A DNA stretch of 64,000 nucleotides from Thecaphora thlaspeos (lineage: Eukaryota > Basidiomycota > Ustilaginomycetes > Urocystidales > Glomosporiaceae), in contig UWYS01000008.1 in the NCBI GenBank assembly GCA_900291925.1, forward strand, positions 806,001 through 870,000, in the 5' to 3' direction. Both the position numbers and the translations under genes were made by a program. Below are positions 40,044 to 60,075 of the stretch, one piece after another (positions within the stretch are counted from its first letter, which is position 1; every line of letters begins with the position of its first letter). The notes below the pieces were generated by a model. The model searched no databases and was not told where the DNA came from. It saw nothing but the letters and a program-made list of their open reading frames with translations.

Positions 40044-41178
40044 GAGAGGAAGGAGGGAGGTGCCCGGGTCAGAAGGAGGACGAGGAGGCAGCGACGCTTT
40101 GCATTTTTGCTTTGGCGCGCTTGGGTCGCGAGCTTGTTGCTGGCGATGGTGGCGGACGCTGCTTTGTATGCGCAATGGAAGCTCGTATCTTCCTTGATGG
40201 CTAGCCGTTGATGATACCGTTCGGCGTTGCGAGACGATGCGTGCGTGGCGAGGTACAGTATGTTGACCGACGTGGGGGAAGATCATGACTGTACCGGCGG
40301 TCATCAAGATTCTTTTGTGACGTGACGTGCGGGGAGGAGAAGCGATGGGAGCCATCGAACGTTGTCCGGCCAGTCAGAGCACACCCAACTACATACTGTA
40401 CAGTAACGCACATGTCCTGTCGCATGCTCCTTTGCCCCTCTTCTCCAGCTTGTCGTCTCTCGCTTCCACCTCGCTTGATCAGTTGACCGCTCGCACGCAC
40501 AGCACTCAACGAGACGCCATCCGAGCCAGAGTCAAAATCCTCCTACTACTTACTACTGCACTGTAGCCTCTTGCCAAGCAACCTCCGTCCACCTCTGCAA
40601 CGCAGCACCAACTCGAGAGACGAGGCTGGCTGCGAGGGGAAGAGAGAAGGGAGAGGGGAAACCCATGTATTGCCGGACCCCGCAGGGGGGGACGCCGCGA
40701 GCTCCGAGCTGGCGCCATAGGGCCGGCCGGTTGAGCGCTGCATGAGAGCGAGGCGTAGAAGAGCGCAGGGCGCGCGAGAACGAAAGAAAGCTAGCTACAT
40801 GCGAGGGGAGCGAGCGAGGACATGTAAGAAGGGAAGGGTGGGCGAAAGGAAGCAAGTCGACGTCGTCGAACGGCGTCGACGAGGAGAGATGATGGAGGAG
40901 AGGAGAGAGGGAGAGGGGCGGAGTGCCAGCGAGGCAGGCCGGCTCGCTGCCTCGCTGCCTCGCTGCCTCGAACCGGCGCACCCTGCGCCCGGATCCGAGC
41001 GCCGAGCAGCATCAGGTCCGAGCGTCGTCGAGCCAACCGATCACCTACAGTACAGTACATACCTACCTCGTCTACCTTGGTGCTATAAGTAAAGCCTCTC
41101 GAGATGTGAGTTCCGCAGACCTTTCTTGTTTTCCCTCCCGTCCCTTCCACCTTGTCACACCCCTACCGCACCATCATC
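40044..41178. other. Intergenic region, no supported gene
   Basis: This 1.1 kb lies between ATG5 and the lactonase gene. It carries TACTGTA-type words at about 40251, 40395 and 41046, an 8 bp CTCGCTGC triplication near 40950-40975 and a G/A-rich stretch at about 40620-40920. Open frames are short and compositionally odd. Confidence 0.55.
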
Positions 41179-42510
41179 ATGTTGGCTCCCTCCCGCTATC
41201 GTCGTCTGACCGCGGCCATCTTGGTCCTCTCTTTTCTCTTCTCGAGCAGCATGGCTTCCCTCGATTTCTCGTCTCACCTCGCCTCCGCCGGTCATAAAGC
41301 CAAGATGGATCTTCACCTCCTCGCCACCACCTTTAACGGTACCGTGTTGCCGTACACGGTGGACACCAAGATGTCCTCCTTCACCCGTGGCACTTCATCT
41401 TTTGCCTCGACGACCTTTGGAGAGAATCCGGGCTGGATCTGCTACTCGCCCACCTTTTCCTCCTCTTCCTCGACGGACGCACACCGTCGTATGCTCTACA
41501 TCGTAGATGGAGCGAGTTCCAACATCTACGCCGCCTCGCTCGACACACTCGATCCACTCTCCCTCTCTGCTGTGGGAGAACCGGTCTCTTCGAACGGAAT
41601 CGAACCGGTATCGTGCGTCGTTGGACACGGACCTTCGGCCAATACGCTGTTCGTCGCCAACTACGGCAGTGGAACGATGGCCTACTTCCGTCTTGATTCC
41701 AAGACGGGTGCCATCGATGCCGCCTCTAGAGAGGTCTACCAGTTCACTCGTAACGGTACGGGTCCCGTGGCGGATAGACAGTATCAAAGTTATGCACACC
41801 AAACCCAAATTTCACACGATGGTCGATGGGTGTACGTGTGCGATTTGGGTGCGGATGTGATTCATCGATTCCAGATCACACCGTCGATCGACAAAGACCA
41901 AAAGGCAAAGGTCGAGTATAAGGGCGATACAAAGGTGGATGCAGGTAGTGGACCGAGACACATGACATTCTACCCCTCCACCACGCTACCCTCCAATGCC
42001 AAACGAGACGATGCCACGACAACCGTACACGCCTACCTCGCCTCCGAACTCTCCTCTACCGTCACTGCCTTTTCGTACGATGCCGATACGGGCAAGCTCC
42101 ATCAACTAGGTCAACCCCTCTTTCCCTTCCCACCTGAAACTCCCCTCTCCGGTCCCAACATCCTTCCCACCAATCGAACCACTGCCGAGATAGAAGTCTC
42201 CCCTGACGGTCGATTCGTCTATGTTTCCAACCGTGGAGATAGCAAAGAGGATCACATCTCCATCTTCCGACGCGATTCAAAAGATGGTACCATCCAGTTC
42301 GTAGAGTGGGTAGGAAGCGGGGGGTTGCTACCGAGACATTTCTCCCTGAGCTCCCCCAGTGATGGAGCGGCAGACTATCTCGTCTCGGCCCATCAGAATA
42401 GTCAGGATCTTGTCCTTTTCAAGAGGGATAGCAAGACTGGAGCGCTGGACAAGTTGCACAAGATCAAGCATGTTGGCGTCGTGGTGTATGCTGGCTTCCT
42501 ACCGGCTTAG
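41179..42510 (+). CDS. Secreted lactonase-type beta-propeller (6-phosphogluconolactonase family)
   Basis: An intronless gene of 443 residues. Residues 1-25 form a signal peptide (basic MLAPSRYRRL, then TAAILVLSFLFSS). The rest is a seven-bladed propeller of the fungal YkgB/3-carboxy-cis,cis-muconate lactonase family, with recurring blade ends: NTLFVANYGSGTMAYFRLDS, HQTQISHDGRWVYVCDLGAD, GSGPRHMTFYP, EIEVSPDGRFVYVSNRGDS and PRHFSLSSPSD. Family members hydrolyse sugar or muconate lactones. Substrate cannot be read from sequence, and a secreted one is likelier to act on an extracellular lactone or glucan product than on pentose-phosphate intermediates. N-glycosylation sequons (NGT, NRT) agree with secretion. 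The coding DNA looks less GC-extreme than its neighbours, with more T-ending codons. The frame opens upstream of the ATG, but 41179 gives the clean signal peptide. Confidence 0.85.
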   Translation: MLAPSRYRRLTAAILVLSFLFSSSMASLDFSSHLASAGHKAKMDLHLLATTFNGTVLPYTVDTKMSSFTRGTSSFASTTFGENPGWICYSPTFSSSSSTDAHRRMLYIVDGASSNIYAASLDTLDPLSLSAVGEPVSSNGIEPVSCVVGHGPSANTLFVANYGSGTMAYFRLDSKTGAIDAASREVYQFTRNGTGPVADRQYQSYAHQTQISHDGRWVYVCDLGADVIHRFQITPSIDKDQKAKVEYKGDTKVDAGSGPRHMTFYPSTTLPSNAKRDDATTTVHAYLASELSSTVTAFSYDADTGKLHQLGQPLFPFPPETPLSGPNILPTNRTTAEIEVSPDGRFVYVSNRGDSKEDHISIFRRDSKDGTIQFVEWVGSGGLLPRHFSLSSPSDGAADYLVSAHQNSQDLVLFKRDSKTGALDKLHKIKHVGVVVYAGFLPA

Positions 42511-45752: not shown

Positions 45753-47027
45753 CTAGCGAGCGGCAGCCCTGCCCTGTCTAGCTCGTCCCCTCGTCCCCAA
45801 TCCGATGGGCTCCTCGTCCCGCTCTCCCGCTCCGATGCCTCCATCTCCACTGCCGCCAGCGCCCGTCCTGAAGCTGGCGCCAATCGAATCGAGCCAGGCC
45901 GTCGGGTTTTCCTGAAACTTCCTCATCTCGTCCTGCACCCGTCCAGCGGCTCGCAGGGCAGAGGCCGCGTCGATCCCCTGCCTCTGTCCCGCCGAGATCA
46001 TCGATCCCAGCAGGCCGGCAAAGTCCACTCCGCCTCCTCCTCCGCCATCCTTGTGGCCGTCGCTGTTGTCGTTGTTGTGGCGACCCTCGTTTTGCGTGCG
46101 ACCCAAAAGGTCGCTGAAGGCACCCAAGCCGCCGCTCAGGTCGGCGGGCAGGTTGTCATCGATGTCGATGCCACCGTTGGAGCGAGCGTTGCGGCGGTTG
46201 CGAGGCTTGCGATCTCGCCCAGAGAAGGGCGTGGAGCGTCTTGCTCGCGAGTTTGAGCTTGCTGCGCCGCTGTTGGAAAGCTGCGAGTAGATTGCTGAAA
46301 AGGCAGGGTTCGATACGAACGAGTTTACTGCGCGATCGAGGGGATGGCAAAGGATATGGACGGAGGCGTGTGGGCGACGGACGGCACAGAGAAGGAGTAA
46401 GCGGTCGGAACTTGGCCTCAGCCTTTCCACGCCCCCGTTGCTGGAGAGAAGGTAAATGACAAGCGGTGGACGAGAGCAGATAGCGGGCGGAGGAGCAGCA
46501 TCAGGACCTCAGACAACGCTGGTGGCTGCGGCGAGCACGTCTGGCGTTTGGCTCGCGGCAGATTTGTGCGCAAGCAGACGAGCGACGGGAGTAGGAGGAT
46601 GAGGGGGAGGAGGAAGAGGAGGAGGAGGGAAAGGAGTATTCCAGGACTCACATCTGCCAATCTGGTCGAACCAGCCGGATGGCGGAGCGTGTTCGACCGA
46701 GTTGATGGCTTCGGTGTTGTCGGTCCACCATGCCCACATGGCGATGGCGGCGCCGATGATTGCGCCCCACTTGATCCCCCACCAGGCGAGCGATATGGCG
46801 TTGCGTACGGTGCGGTAGGCGATGACGAGTGCGGCATAGGCGAGGAAGAAGGTGATGAGGGGCGGCAGCAGCGTCGAGGTCCAGGAGGCGGGGTCGTTAG
46901 AGGAGCCGAGGAGGCTGTAGATGAGGTTCGAGAAGCCGACCAGCACGCGGAAGACTGGATAGGGGATGAATGTGCTGAGCAGTTCGTGGAAGGCGCCGGG
47001 AAGATCGGCGGCGTCGGCGCCAGGCAT
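45753..47027 (-). CDS. Apq12-like nuclear envelope/ER membrane protein
   Basis: Exons are 47027-46652 and 46327-45753; the 324 nt intron has donor GTGAGT and acceptor GCGCAG. The product is 316 residues. Two adjacent hydrophobic helices (LITFFLAYAALVIAYRTV and GIKWGAIIGAAIAMWAWW, about 50-105) joined by the amphipathic RTVRNAISLAWW resemble the Apq12 family. Yeast Apq12 works with Brr6 and Brl1 in membrane remodelling during nuclear pore assembly. An additional N-terminal hydrophobic stretch FRVLVGFSNLIYSLL is present. The second exon encodes a disordered Gly/Arg/Asn-rich tail with DLSGGLGAFSDLLG and a short helix VQDEMRKFQENPTAWLDSI. Yeast Apq12 has only about 138 residues, so the tail is extra. 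Family assignment rests on the hydrophobic pair and is moderate. Confidence 0.65.
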
Positions 47028-47801
47028 GTTGGAGCGCTGGTTGAATGAAGTTGGTGGATGCTGGCGTAGACGTGTGCCAAGCTGGGATGGCTTGCCCAGG
47101 GGAGCGGGAGTGTGTGAGATGGATGGGACGCACGCAGAAGGTGGGTCGCTGGGTGAGTGCGGGTTGCCCAGTTTCTAAGTAGTTGGCTGACAGAAGAGCG
47201 GTTGGCGCCTCAGGCCCGGGTAGGATGGGAGAAAGAATTTGACGAGGGGATGGAACGACGAGGGGATCCTGACGGCGAGCTTCGAGAGGGGTAGGAAAAG
47301 CTGCTCCTCAGTAGCATGCAGGGTGCAGCAGGGTGCAGCCACGTCCCTCCACGTCGCTTCCACGTCAAGGCAGCCACATCGGGAAGGCTGCTTTCAAGGA
47401 TCGGGGCTGAGCGCCAAACACCTTGCGACGGACGGCCAAAAGGGCGGCCATCAGCGCGACCCTTTCGGCCCGTCGGCGCTAAGTTATCGTTTGGGGCGCG
47501 CACGCACCGACCTGACCTGACTCGGTCACGACTCGCTCCATTTCTTGACTCCTTTGCAACGGACCAGCAGCGTTGGGATTGGGGCCAGCGACCCTCGGCT
47601 CCACCGCTTCCCTTTGGCACTTCCCTCCCCCCTCCCCCCTCACACATCTCCCTCTCTTTCCCTCCCTTCCTCCGTACACTTCGATACAGCGGCAACTGCA
47701 TCCCTCTTGGCCCTTGGCCCTTCTTCCTCCTAGCTCACTCTTCCCTCCCCCTCGCTGCCGCCTCCTTTCTGCTGCCGCTGCCGCTGCCGCCGCCGCCGCC
47801 C
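47028..47801. promoter_or_regulatory. Divergent upstream region, Apq12-like and Sec14-PHO13 genes
   Basis: 774 bp between two divergent start codons. The right 250 bp are CT-rich (CTTCCC, CCTCCC) and end in a CCGCTGCCGC run just before the ATG at 47802, typical of a 5' leader. The reading frame of the downstream gene remains open through it, but composition argues against coding. Confidence 0.5.
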
Positions 47802-50246
47802 ATGTCCCGCTTCCTCGCACGGCTCAGCAGGCAGTCCTCCGAGGCCAACTCGATCCGCTCGGCAAAGTCGACCGAGTTGCTTGCCGCCGACCTGCCTCCG
47901 AAGACGCACGATCTTATGCTCAGGCCCGCAGATGGACGCACGCCCAAGCAACGTCCCGAGCTCTCCGCAGAGCAGCAGGCAAAGCTCGTCCAGTTGCGCG
48001 AGTTTCTCCAGGCCTATGTCGCCGCCAAGCCGCCCGCACAGACAGATTACACATCCTGGGAGCAAAAGTGGATCGCTCCAGACGAGCTTTACCAGCGCTA
48101 CCTCCGTGCCGCAAAGGGGGACCTCGACAACGCCAAGCAGAGGCTCATCGGCACGCTCGAGTGGAGACGAGAGTTCCGCCCCGAGATTATCGCGCCCGCA
48201 GACGTCGCCGTCGAGGGAGAGACGGGCAAGCACGTAATCAGCGGCTTCGACAAGGACGGCCGTCCCATCCTCTACCTCCGCCCCGGCCGCGAAAACACCT
48301 CGCCCAGCCAGCGTCAGATCCGCTATCTCGTATGGAGTCTTGAGCGTGCCATCGACATGATGCCCCAGGGCGTCGACAACATCGCCATCGTCATCGACTA
48401 CAAGGGCGCCACCACCCAGTCCAACCCCTCGCTCTCCACCACGAGGCAGGTCGCAAACATCCTCCAGAACCACTACGTCGAGCGCATGGGTCGCGCCTTT
48501 GTCTGCAACGTCCCCTGGGTCCTCAACGCCTTCTTCACCGCCATCACGCCCTTCCTCGACCCCATCACAAAGGACAAGATCCGCTTCAACGCCGACCTCA
48601 GGGAGTTCATCCCCGTTGATCAGCTAGACGTCGAGTTCTACGGCGGACGCTACAACTACGACTTCGACTTCAAGACCTACTGGCAGACGATCATCGACTT
48701 CTGCGGCATCGCCAAGGACGGAACCAGGACGCACCCTTCCTACGCTCGCAGCGACAAGGGCGCCGGCGCTGCGGCTTCGTCCGGGAAGGACCAGGCCGCC
48801 ACTCCGGCGTCGGCGGCAGAGGGGAACGCTTCCACCGCTGCTCTTGCGCCCGCTGTCGACTCCTCCAAGCCCATCGAGCAGCACGCCGATGCGCTCGCTG
48901 CCGAGGCGGACGTTACCACTGGCACGTCGGCCATCGGCATCGGCGCCGCTGTCGGGGCAGCGGGAGCGATTGGCATCACGGGTGCCGGTGCGGGCATGGG
49001 CGCAGCGAAGAGCGAGGCGGCGGCGGCATCAGCAGCAGGACACGGCAGCGAGCAGCCGCATGGGCCGTACACCTACCTGAAGACCACCGACGCCTACGAA
49101 AAGCTCATGGATGACTACGACACGTTCCTCTTTGGTGAGTGACGGCGAGACATCTCTCAGCAGTCGCATGGACACCCGGGACATTGATGTTGACGTGCAC
49201 ACATGTCATTCTTCGTTCTCCTGCCCCCTTCCTACCTCGTAGACTGCGACGGCGTGTTGTGGTCGGGCGACGAGACGATCCCCGGGGCCGTCTCCGTGCT
49301 CGAGAAGCTGCGGAAACGCAACAAGCAGGTCATATTCGTCACGAACAACGCATCCAAGAGTCGCGAGACCTACCTCAGGAAGTTTGCCGGGATGAAGATC
49401 CAGGCCGACATCTCGGAGATCTACTCGTCGTCGTATGCGTCGGCTGTCTACCTGAAGCGCGTGCTCAAGTTCCCGGCCGACCGCAAGGTCTACGTGATCG
49501 GAATGCATGGGATCGAGGAAGAGCTCGACGCCGAGGGCATCCTACACTGCGGCGGGACCAACAAGGTGGACAACGTCTTCCTGCCGGCGCTCGACTTTAC
49601 CATGCTGCAGTCGGACGATGCGATCGATCCCAAGGTGGGCGCGGTGGTGTGTGGTTTTGACATGCACATTTCGTACATCAAGCTGGCCAAGGCGTTCAAG
49701 CACCTCACGCGGACCGGCGCCGAGGGCGAGGTGGAGGAGGGCAAAGAGGGCGGCGGATGCCACTTTATCCTGACCAACGACGACTCGACGTTCCCCGCCA
49801 AGGGAGGACCGTGGCCGGGCGCGGGCTCGCTCTCGGTGCCCCTCATCTTTTCCACCAAGCGGACGCCGACCGTGGTCGGAAAGCCGCACAAGCCGATGCT
49901 CGACTGCATCATGGCGACGTGAGTACCGATGGACCCGCCTCGAGGGAGCTGCAGTGGATCTCAACCTGTTCGTTCTGACCTTCTTGCCTCGGCCCGTTTT
50001 CGTCCTGAATTCGACGTCGCCGCCGCCGCCGCCGTTGCCGCCAACAGGAAGCAGTTCGACCCGAAACGGGCGATCCTGGTGGGCGACCGCCTCAACACGG
50101 ACATTGAGTTTGCAAAGGTGGGCAAGATTGCCTCGCTAATGGTGCTGACGGGCATTTCGACGAAGGCCGAGATCGACGCGCCAAACGCCAAGACGGTGCC
50201 GGACTTCCTGATCGATAGCCTGGGCGACCTGGATGCCTTGCCTTGA
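47802..50246 (+). CDS. Fusion of Sec14/Pdr16-like CRAL-TRIO domain and PHO13-type HAD phosphatase
   Basis: Exons are 47802-49134, 49243-49918 and 50048-50246; total about 735 residues. Residues 55-310 are a Sec14-type lipid-transfer unit close to Pdr16/Pdr17: YLRAAKGDLDNAKQRLIGTL, SGFDKDGRPILYLRPGRENT, NIAIVIDYKG, NHYVERMGRAFVCNVPWVLN and TPFLDPITKDKIRFNAD. A linker of about 110 Ala/Gly/Thr-rich residues follows. From about 418 comes a complete PHO13 p-nitrophenylphosphatase: DTFLFDCDGVLWSGDETIPG (motif I, Asp 445 and 447), VTNNASKSR (motif II), CGFDMHISYIKL, GKPHKP (motif III Lys) and GDRLNTDI (motif IV). PHO13 enzymes remove toxic by-products such as 2-phosphoglycolate. Intron 1 splits motif I between phases exactly (TTT G / AC TGC GAC). 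The two parts may instead be separate genes with an internal start, but no promoter-like gap is visible. Leaving intron 1 in would stop at 49142. Confidence 0.85.
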
Positions 50247-57981: not shown

Positions 57982-59682
57982 TCACTGGACCTTCTTCGCC
58001 GGGGCTACGGTCCGTTCGTCCTTGACGGTCAACCAGAGGTATACGAAGAGTAGAAATCCAAGACTGGTGCTAAACGCTCCGGCGATGTAAGGCCAGCTGC
58101 TGCTCAAGAACCGAGGGAACTCATCGTGGTTGAAGGGTCGCACGGGTGCGGTGTCCTTTTCCAAGACAAACGTCCATCCGTGTCGCTTAAAGTCGACGAG
58201 GAACGTAAAGACACCGTGTCGATCTGGGATCTGGAACGTCGTTGTGAAGCGTCGCGATGTCGATGAAGACCAAGAGGGCGAGGAAAGGTCCGTCACATTC
58301 CCACTGTCGATGGCGATGAGGTCGGTGGTGATATAGGGATCCAGCATCTTGAACGTCACCTGCAGCGGAAGGTCGTGCGGCGCAGGAATCCAGCCGTGCT
58401 CGGCAGAGTAAATCGATAGGTCCAGGTCGTACGTCACGTGGTCCTTGATGCGGTACATCTTGTTGCCTTCGCTCGTCTCCTCGTAGTCTTCGCGCAGATC
58501 GTCGGGGCTATACTTGACGCGACGGTGGTGCGTAGCTTGCACCTTGAGCACCGACTTCTCCTGGAACACCCACTGCGTCAGGTCAGAGACGACACGTGCG
58601 TTGAGCGTCTCGTACCTGGCCGAGAGGAAGGAGTCCTTGAGCATCTCGGTGCTGCCGAGGAAGACGGCGCGCGCCGAGCTGTCCTTAAGCTGGAAGCCCG
58701 AGACGAGCGAAACGGTGTCGCTCGACGACCTCGCGAGGCCGGCGACCAGCTCGTTTTTCTGCTCGAGCGCCTCGAGCCCCGCGCGTCTCTTTGCGATCCA
58801 GCTGTCCTTTTCCTTGCGCTTAGACGGGACAGCGACGACGGTGGGGACGGCGGCGGGTGTCGAGACCGTCTCGTACGTCTCTTGCTCGCCATCGACGATG
58901 CGAGTGGCGATGCTGGTGACGGCGGCGGGCTGCGAGTAGGATGTAGTCGAGCGGGGAGCCTCGTCCTTGTCCCTGACCAGCTCAGGGGTCTCGGAGGAGT
59001 ACGAGGTGGCGGCGGGCACGATGAGGGGGAAGGCGAGCGGATTGGCGCCGAGACGGTGGGCGATGCCGCGGTACAGGATGGGCTGCGACTTGGCCAGCTC
59101 GAGGGTCTGGGGCGAGAACACGGCCGGGTTGGTGATGATGCCTCCGGCGGGCAGGTCGACGTTGTTGGCGACGTGTGCGGCCCTGCCCGGACCGAGGAGG
59201 ACGGTGGTGTGATTGCCGGCATCGAGCTGATCGTCGAAGCTAAAGTGGTCGACCACGGCGGACCCCCTCTCTTCAAGTTCGACGGAGAACTCCCTCGAGA
59301 GGTCGCGGAAGAACTCAGAGACGTGCGAGTCGAGGCCAAAGAGGACGTTGCCTCCGTCCTTGAGGTAGTTTACGAGGGAGAGCGGTGTGAGGTCCGGGCT
59401 GAGCGACTTGCTGGAGGGGCTGAGGAGGATGAGGTGGTCGTACGCCTTTACGTCGTGTTCGACCAGCTGTGGCTTGAGCGCCTTGGGCGTCTTGAAGGTG
59501 AGCTTGTATCCGCGCGAAATGAGCTGGTCGAAGAAGGAGGAGAAGTCGGACTGCGGCTGGTCGAGGACGACGAGGATCTGTCGACCCGTCGCCGAGGGAC
59601 CGTGGGAGGAGGCGGCGTAGGAAGGCGAGACGGCCGAGGCGACGAGCAGCAGAGCTGCGCTCAGGATGGAGAAGAATTTCAT
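57982..59682 (-). CDS. WBP1: Oligosaccharyltransferase subunit Wbp1/OST48
   Basis: A single exon encodes 566 residues. Wbp1 is an essential subunit of the ER oligosaccharyltransferase, which transfers the lipid-linked glycan to Asn residues. A signal peptide starts at 59682 (MKFFSILSAALLLVASAVSP). The lumenal part begins RQILVVLDQPQSDFSSFFDQ, with HLILLSPSSKSLSPDLTPLS, GGNVLFGLDSHVSEF and HVTYDLDLSIYSAEHGWIPA. A transmembrane helix near the end (YIAGAFSTSLGFLLFVYLWL) is followed by a short cytoplasmic tail ending KKVQ, which fits the KKxx ER-retrieval motif. An insert of Glu/Thr-rich residues around 275-320 is extra compared with yeast (430 residues). An in-frame ATG at 59901 lies in leader-like sequence. 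Confidence 0.92.
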   Translation of the reverse strand: MKFFSILSAALLLVASAVSPSYAASSHGPSATGRQILVVLDQPQSDFSSFFDQLISRGYKLTFKTPKALKPQLVEHDVKAYDHLILLSPSSKSLSPDLTPLSLVNYLKDGGNVLFGLDSHVSEFFRDLSREFSVELEERGSAVVDHFSFDDQLDAGNHTTVLLGPGRAAHVANNVDLPAGGIITNPAVFSPQTLELAKSQPILYRGIAHRLGANPLAFPLIVPAATSYSSETPELVRDKDEAPRSTTSYSQPAAVTSIATRIVDGEQETYETVSTPAAVPTVVAVPSKRKEKDSWIAKRRAGLEALEQKNELVAGLARSSSDTVSLVSGFQLKDSSARAVFLGSTEMLKDSFLSARYETLNARVVSDLTQWVFQEKSVLKVQATHHRRVKYSPDDLREDYEETSEGNKMYRIKDHVTYDLDLSIYSAEHGWIPAPHDLPLQVTFKMLDPYITTDLIAIDSGNVTDLSSPSWSSSTSRRFTTTFQIPDRHGVFTFLVDFKRHGWTFVLEKDTAPVRPFNHDEFPRFLSSSWPYIAGAFSTSLGFLLFVYLWLTVKDERTVAPAKKVQ

Positions 59683-60075
59683 CCTGTGAGGTGGTTGCAG
59701 CGAGCGGTGGAGGGCCGAGCTGGCTGGGTGGGTTGATGGGGATGGACAAGGTGGGTGGGGTGAGAAGAAGAAGCTGCCGGGGCAAGCTGGCTGGGCTAGA
59801 CTGGGCAGGGCCGGACTTGGCTGGCTGGAAGTCGACGCTCCAGCGAAGCGGCTGCGTCCGTGCGTAACGAGGCGACTTCTTCCTGCCGCAGGCGTGCCCA
59901 TTCACTCGCGCGACAACTCCGAGCAGCTAGCTCAGCCTGCTCCACTTTTCCGGCTGGACCCCCGAAGTCGCTCATGCACCCTCGTTCGCCACCAACCACC
60001 ACCTAGTCCTCGCCACCGCCGCCGCCACCGCCACTACCACCACCCTACCCTCCCTTCGTCACACCCACCTTCACC
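59683..60075. promoter_or_regulatory. Divergent upstream region of WBP1 and YJU2
   Basis: 393 bp between divergent start codons. It holds CCACC/CCGCC runs on the YJU2 side (60000-60075) and presumably both promoters. Confidence 0.5.

Follow-up and report, generated by a model that had tools for sequence, protein, structure and literature searches.

A Pdr16-like Sec14 domain and a PHO13-type HAD phosphatase joined in one conserved gene of Ustilaginomycetes

The window analysed here is a stretch of 64,000 nucleotides from Thecaphora thlaspeos (contig UWYS01000008.1, positions 806,001 to 870,000), a species whose genome was available as 20.59 Mb in 32 contigs. On its plus strand lies a gene of three exons, with its ATG at 47802 and a stop codon ending at 50246, which encodes a fusion protein of 735 amino acids (aa; 79.9 kDa, calculated). 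From N- to C-terminus, it comprises a Sec14 domain of the Pdr16/Sfh3 type, a linker rich in Ala and Gly, and a HAD phosphatase of the PHO13/PGP type, which is complete (Table 1). The initial annotation, made from the letters alone, had proposed that the two domains share a single frame; its coordinates were exact on re-translation, and the spliced DNA is open throughout. When exon 1 is left unspliced, its frame stops at DTFLFGE, ahead of the nucleophile, so that translation can enter motif I only if intron 1 has been removed. The donor of intron 1 was the sole strong one in 48701-49242 under the donor patterns tried; there is therefore no obvious intron parting the two halves, and a hidden intron separating them was rejected. 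Together with 19 full-length fused relatives (see below), the open frame confirms, at the level of sequence, a real and conserved fusion gene.

Table 1. Features of the fusion gene, in window coordinates.
Feature	Position	Strand	Basis
Exon 1: start codon, Sec14/Pdr16-like domain, linker, first phosphatase residues	47802..49134	+	residues 1-444 plus one base
CRAL_TRIO domain, residues 140-280	48219..48641	+	Pfam PF00650, 1.5e-42
Codon E227, aligned with Pdr16 E235 (phosphatidylinositol binding)	48480..48482	+	structure-match alignment; invariant in 20/20 fusions
Codon K259, aligned with Pdr16 K267 (phosphatidylinositol binding)	48576..48578	+	structure-match alignment; invariant in 20/20 fusions
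Ala/Gly-rich linker, residues 310-422	48729..49067	+	fusion alignment; P. flocculosa homologue model
Conserved linker block peculiar to fusions, residues 356-396 (alignment columns 389-432)	48867..48989	+	column identity
Intron 1 (GTGAGT...GTAG; GT-AG)	49135..49242	+	splice junctions
Exon 2: HAD motifs I-III and cap	49243..49918	+	Pfam PF13344
Intron 2 (GT-AG)	49919..50047	+	splice junctions
Exon 3: HAD motif IV (VGDRLNTD) and stop codon	50048..50246	+	Pfam PF13242

The identities that had been proposed for the two halves were upheld by Pfam, by structure matches and by a homologue model. For the N-terminal half, PF00650 scored 145.4 bits against a cut-off of 22.6, and the nearest solved structure was yeast Pdr16/Sfh3 (4j7q, 1.8e-52); this half is nearer to Pdr16 than to Sec14. 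In Pdr16, E235 and K267 are described as the Glu/Lys pair that binds phosphatidylinositol (PI), with a mutant (PMC4331669), and the yeast protein is localised to lipid droplets and the cell periphery (PMC5748980). The Sec14 half is thus predicted to be, most likely, a Pdr16/Sfh3-type PI/sterol-binding module; proteins of this type also form dimers. The solved yeast chains of Pdr16/Sfh3 are 333-360 aa long with no second domain named, whereas the fusion has a phosphatase after the Sec14 domain.

In the C-terminal half, Hydrolase_6 matches residues 442-544 (Pfam 7.1e-30) and Hydrolase_like residues 656-731 (3.7e-16), so that the HAD phosphatase region spans 442-731. HAD enzymes are recognised by a DxD nucleophile, a Thr, a Lys and an acidic motif IV; the corresponding D445, D447, T478, K658, D683 and D688 are invariant in all 20 aligned fusions. 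The best match in the Protein Data Bank (PDB) was mouse PGP (7po7), and the family PGP_euk (TIGR01452) was matched at 244.7 bits (cut-off 201.95), a score that belongs to the homologue P0001 and not to the window protein. By these matches, the phosphatase is assigned to the PGP/chronophin group. With the PI-binding pair also invariant, and with both domains confidently modelled in the homologue, both halves look functional, as had been supposed.

The extent of the role of PGP in lipid metabolism is disputed in the field. PGP has been credited with metabolite repair and also with the regulation of glycerol-3-phosphate; the substrates given are 2-phosphoglycolate, 4-phosphoerythronate, 2-phospholactate and glycerol-3-phosphate, all small soluble phosphates (PMC6904873).

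The initial annotation had suggested that proteomes of related fungi be searched for proteins with both domains. The full-length protein was compared with a collection of 5.8 billion proteins, and 71 matches were obtained among the 7996 candidates scored. The first 19 (P0001-P0019), all from Ustilaginomycetes, align over the entire query (100%) with identities of 62-81% and contain both domains; they share the end-to-end architecture of the window protein and differ in linker length and composition. The remaining 52 cover at most 52% of the query. Search length limits kept stand-alone PHO13 proteins out of this search, and fused proteins out of the searches for unfused ones. Thirteen of the 19 have NCBI records, and six come from lgn or ena only. 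The organisms named are Pseudozyma flocculosa, Thecaphora frezii, Testicularia cyperi, Moesziomyces antarcticus, Pseudozyma hubeiensis, Sporisorium graminicola, Kalmanozyma brasiliensis, Ustilago loliicola and U. tritici. A taxonomy look-up placed T. frezii in the Urocystidales and Testicularia in the Ustilaginales; the fusions come from the Ustilaginales and, with T. frezii, from the Urocystidales. Four of the 19 (P0004, P0006, P0010, P0015) carry database names joining PDR16 and PHO13, which implies that annotators had already seen the architecture. A literature search on the fusion, both halves, PTPN9 and smut genomes found no paper describing it among the matches listed, judged by titles and abstract starts. 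The fusion is therefore named in some databases, yet a publication describing it was not found.

Other lgn/ena entries look intron-unaware: P0073 ends in MLDCIIAT, exactly at the end of the unspliced window frame 49194-49922, and P0074, P0084 and P0278 show, by eye, an apparent translated intron at conserved positions. If such entries ignore introns, the six lgn/ena fusions would be uninterrupted reading frames. For four of them the longest contigs measure 11,176 to 39,965 bases; P0003 and P0008, on 3,376 and 2,834 bases, could be transcripts.

Unfused relatives were drawn by their shown names from the best 120 of 2726 matches for PHO13 and the best 120 of 145 for Sec14, so that an unfused Ustilaginomycete lower in the lists, or without a name, could be missed. 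Stand-alone PHO13 proteins, of about 310-360 aa in these other Ustilaginomycotina, were listed for Jaminaea, Tilletiopsis, Tilletia, Ceraceosorus, Tilletiaria, Sympodiomycopsis, Acaromyces and six named Malassezia; stand-alone Sec14 relatives were listed for Malassezia, Exobasidium rhododendri and Ceraceosorus guamensis. Unfused relatives of both halves occur in Exobasidiomycetes, the class that a taxonomy look-up gave for Jaminaea and Tilletia, and in Malassezia. These unfused proteins, and the Sec14-only chains of yeast Pdr16 in the PDB, agree with the earlier statement that the halves are separate in yeasts. Close relatives did not all have separate orthologues: those retrieved are fused, with P0073 a possible exception.

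We then asked what else of either kind the source genome holds. The profile search scored the best candidates only, exon by exon, and its domain counts are lower bounds. It gave at least 10 CRAL_TRIO matches, and the Sec14 next closest to the fused half has 36% identity over 326 aa. The Malassezia stand-alone P0192 is 56% identical to the fused Sec14 half and 38% to the closest paralogue of the source genome. One other Hydrolase_6 match was found, a different HAD with an FDIDGV-type frame at C17, to which the phosphatase half had no tblastn match at 1e-3; a weaker third Hydrolase_like match, at C14, likewise gave none (tblastn at 1e-3 only). From these identities and negatives, the fused halves look like orthologues of the stand-alone proteins and the sole such copies in this genome. 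Five Malassezia proteins (P0192, P0197, P0202, P0206, P0210) for which Pfam lists only CRAL_TRIO types are named '4-nitrophenylphosphatase', probably by transfer from an Ustilaginomycete fusion; P0192 matched no NCBIfam family.

Trees were built with hand-picked unfused proteins, 22 for the phosphatase and 24 for Sec14; the unfused Sec14 rows were trimmed to 360 residues, and P0275 to 232, where by eye its frame is lost. In the phosphatase tree (42 rows), the 20 fusions and P0073 form a starred clade (100/99), which Tilletia adjoins at 93/83, not starred. Forcing the fusions into a single clade lowers the log-likelihood by 0.53 units (p-AU 0.454). In the Sec14 tree (44 rows), the fusions fall on one side of a branch (79/25). 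A single origin of the fusion, in a common ancestor of Ustilaginales and Urocystidales, fits.

A structure-based alignment comprised 17 of the 19 fused relatives (P0010 and P0013 left out) and 49 unfused rows. In the fusions, mean column identity reaches 0.88 across the Sec14 part and 0.92 across the HAD part; within the linker it is 0.18 at first, 0.71 over columns 389-432 and 0.30 over columns 433-457. The linker varies in length and composition and much of it is gappy; the block at columns 389-432, with a consensus near KHADAIAASQLTExGATVGLGAAAGTTAALAV, is recognisable across the 20 aligned fusions, P0016 and P0018 keeping it in part only. It was not detected above shuffled controls in 263 unfused proteins, namely those already retrieved: local scores were 90-181 for the 19 fusions and 38-53 for 20 shuffled controls. 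A derivation from the Sec14 tail of unfused relatives was rejected for this set, the best local score being 49, within the control range. The block is thus the best hint, at sequence level, of selection on the join itself.

The open frame of the linker is by contrast weak evidence alone, since 14.8% of first-order Markov draws with the linker's own composition also stay stop-free over 135 codons (0.5% with the composition of the downstream intergenic DNA), and it is cross-species conservation that carries the case. GC by codon position (0.73/0.70/0.75) is not diagnostic. Structure prediction was made on P0001, the P. flocculosa homologue (81% identical), and not on the window protein. Both domains were confident, as separate units; the matching linker was mostly of low confidence and disordered-like, with one long helix (343-366), also of low confidence. 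A transmembrane linker was considered and set aside, the best 19-residue hydropathy over the 20 fusions being borderline (1.02-1.81) and no confident helix being modelled there.

Elsewhere in the window, Pfam identifies a 7-bladed lactonase (41110-42507, plus strand) and the oligosaccharyltransferase subunit OST48 (57985-59901, minus strand). Upstream of the fusion, an open frame with hydrophobic stretches and no Pfam match (46512-47174, minus strand) probably starts, judged by eye, some 0.8 kb ahead of the fusion ATG, and the two may share a promoter region. Opposite the Sec14 exon lies a stop-free frame of 297 residues (47733-48623, minus strand), probably a by-product of codon bias.

What could such a join do? 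A known parallel is human PTPN9/PTP-MEG2, in which a Sec14 module is described as localising a tyrosine phosphatase to secretory vesicles (PMC10225987). The logic of a Sec14 module on a phosphatase is the same. The differences are that PTPN9 is an animal protein of the PTP family, whereas the catalytic domain of the fusion is a HAD, and no PTP family was among the seven Pfam families that the fusion protein matched at E 0.001. By analogy, the fusion may work like PTPN9 without being a member of the PTPN9-like group.

The explanation that we favour, and to which we give about an even chance, is one polypeptide in which a Sec14 module and a flexible linker hold what is apparently the sole PHO13/PGP-type phosphatase of this genome near lipid surfaces. 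The linker would allow each domain to move on its own, and the Sec14 domain would keep the phosphatase near the surface of lipid droplets, of the endoplasmic reticulum or of the plasma membrane. There, the enzyme would clear 2-phosphoglycolate, 4-phosphoerythronate, 2-phospholactate and possibly glycerol-3-phosphate. Lipid binding would set the place or timing, and would not supply the substrate; the simplest coupling would be positional, on the model of the PTPN9 Sec14 module placing its phosphatase.

Several points weigh against this explanation. A conserved fusion is by itself no demonstration of functional coupling, and the P0001 model gave no sign of firm domain packing (predicted template-modelling score, pTM, 0.52; no inter-domain error estimate). 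The grouping of the fusions as one in the Sec14 tree is weak. The phosphatase of P0073 branches within the fusion clade or next to it; this close relative has an initial Met of its own and may be unfused. Its N-terminal residues, though, align with the last part of the window linker, so that it is not callable as unfused; it could represent a lineage that predates the fusion or has split it, or else a fusion truncated by an intron upstream or by a contig end. Pattern scans for P0073 found nothing in viral contigs, and 13 matches in genome contigs, none a relative. Finally, the window protein and three relatives have a Met 9 residues before motif I, and internal initiation in these proteins is possible.

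The main rival to tethering is a neutral fusion: a chance ancestral joining, after which each domain kept its old role and the linker remained a mere spacer. We regard this as possible, if clearly less probable than the tethered phosphatase. It would account for two domains that retain the residues of their families and form separate units in the model, and for a linker so variable and gappy; it does not predict that the join be kept in all 19 full-length relatives retrieved, in two orders, nor that one linker block be conserved.

A more elaborate form of coupling is a lipid-gated phosphatase, in which the linker block and the loading of the Pdr16 domain with PI/sterol would jointly switch the working place of the PGP enzyme. 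The block is borderline hydrophobic and could possibly contact a membrane or lipid droplet. We consider this form unlikely.

Somewhat less probable still is that the halves are made separately, by alternative transcripts, intron-1 retention, internal initiation or linker proteolysis, the fusion being a precursor or one isoform. Intron 1 lies just ahead of motif I, and its retention would give a Sec14-plus-linker protein ending in FLFGE; the conserved linker block could serve as a processing site; and in yeast, LDO45/LDO16 are described as a hybrid transcript alongside a shorter product (PMC5748980). In the window protein, initiation at the in-frame Met 399 or Met 436, which precede motif I by 46 and 9 residues, would give products of 36.4 and 32.7 kDa (calculated). 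P0001 also has two Mets in the stretch from the end of Sec14 (DG[TS]R) to motif I, and P0005, P0007 and P0019 have one each. The other 15 of the 20 fusions, however, have none, and the first Met past motif I lies 50 or 87 residues downstream, beyond the nucleophile; an internal AUG there would therefore give no active enzyme from that frame. An internal start yielding a free phosphatase is thus unlikely in 15 of the 20 fusions and possible in the window. Six relatives, moreover, apparently have no intron at that place, if the reasoning on the lgn/ena entries holds.

The initial annotation had also raised a lipid-linked phosphate, which the Sec14 pocket would offer to the phosphatase. The physical joining to a lipid-binding domain is in its favour, but no further support was found: the phosphatase matches the PGP/chronophin family, whose PGP members are described as using small soluble phosphates (PMC6904873), and we hold this substrate to be very improbable. 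Least credible of all is an annotation artefact, in which gene predictors joined two neighbouring genes; such merges exist (a 724-aa Sanghuangporus vaninii protein, P0043, with CRAL_TRIO and PF01266, may be one) and an open linker frame is not improbable, but we reject it, since the window DNA, after excision of intron 1, has no stop separating the halves and all 20 aligned sequences have the same architecture, with the block in each, at least in part. Two other composites may also be gene-model merges: P0052 (Backusella circina), with EF-hand-type domains after PHO13, and P0055 (a Geoglossum simile metagenome-assembled genome record), with PF00756 after PHO13.

The fusion would add an enzyme-bearing Sec14 protein in fungi, beyond the multi-domain SEC14L-PITPs placed in animals and streptophytes by the source that describes them (PMC10225987). 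A conserved natural fusion of PGP with a lipid-transfer domain points to a link between this phosphatase and membranes or lipids. If lipid gating were true, it would couple the removal of glycolytic side-products, or of glycerol-3-phosphate, to the state of membrane lipids across an entire class of smut fungi.
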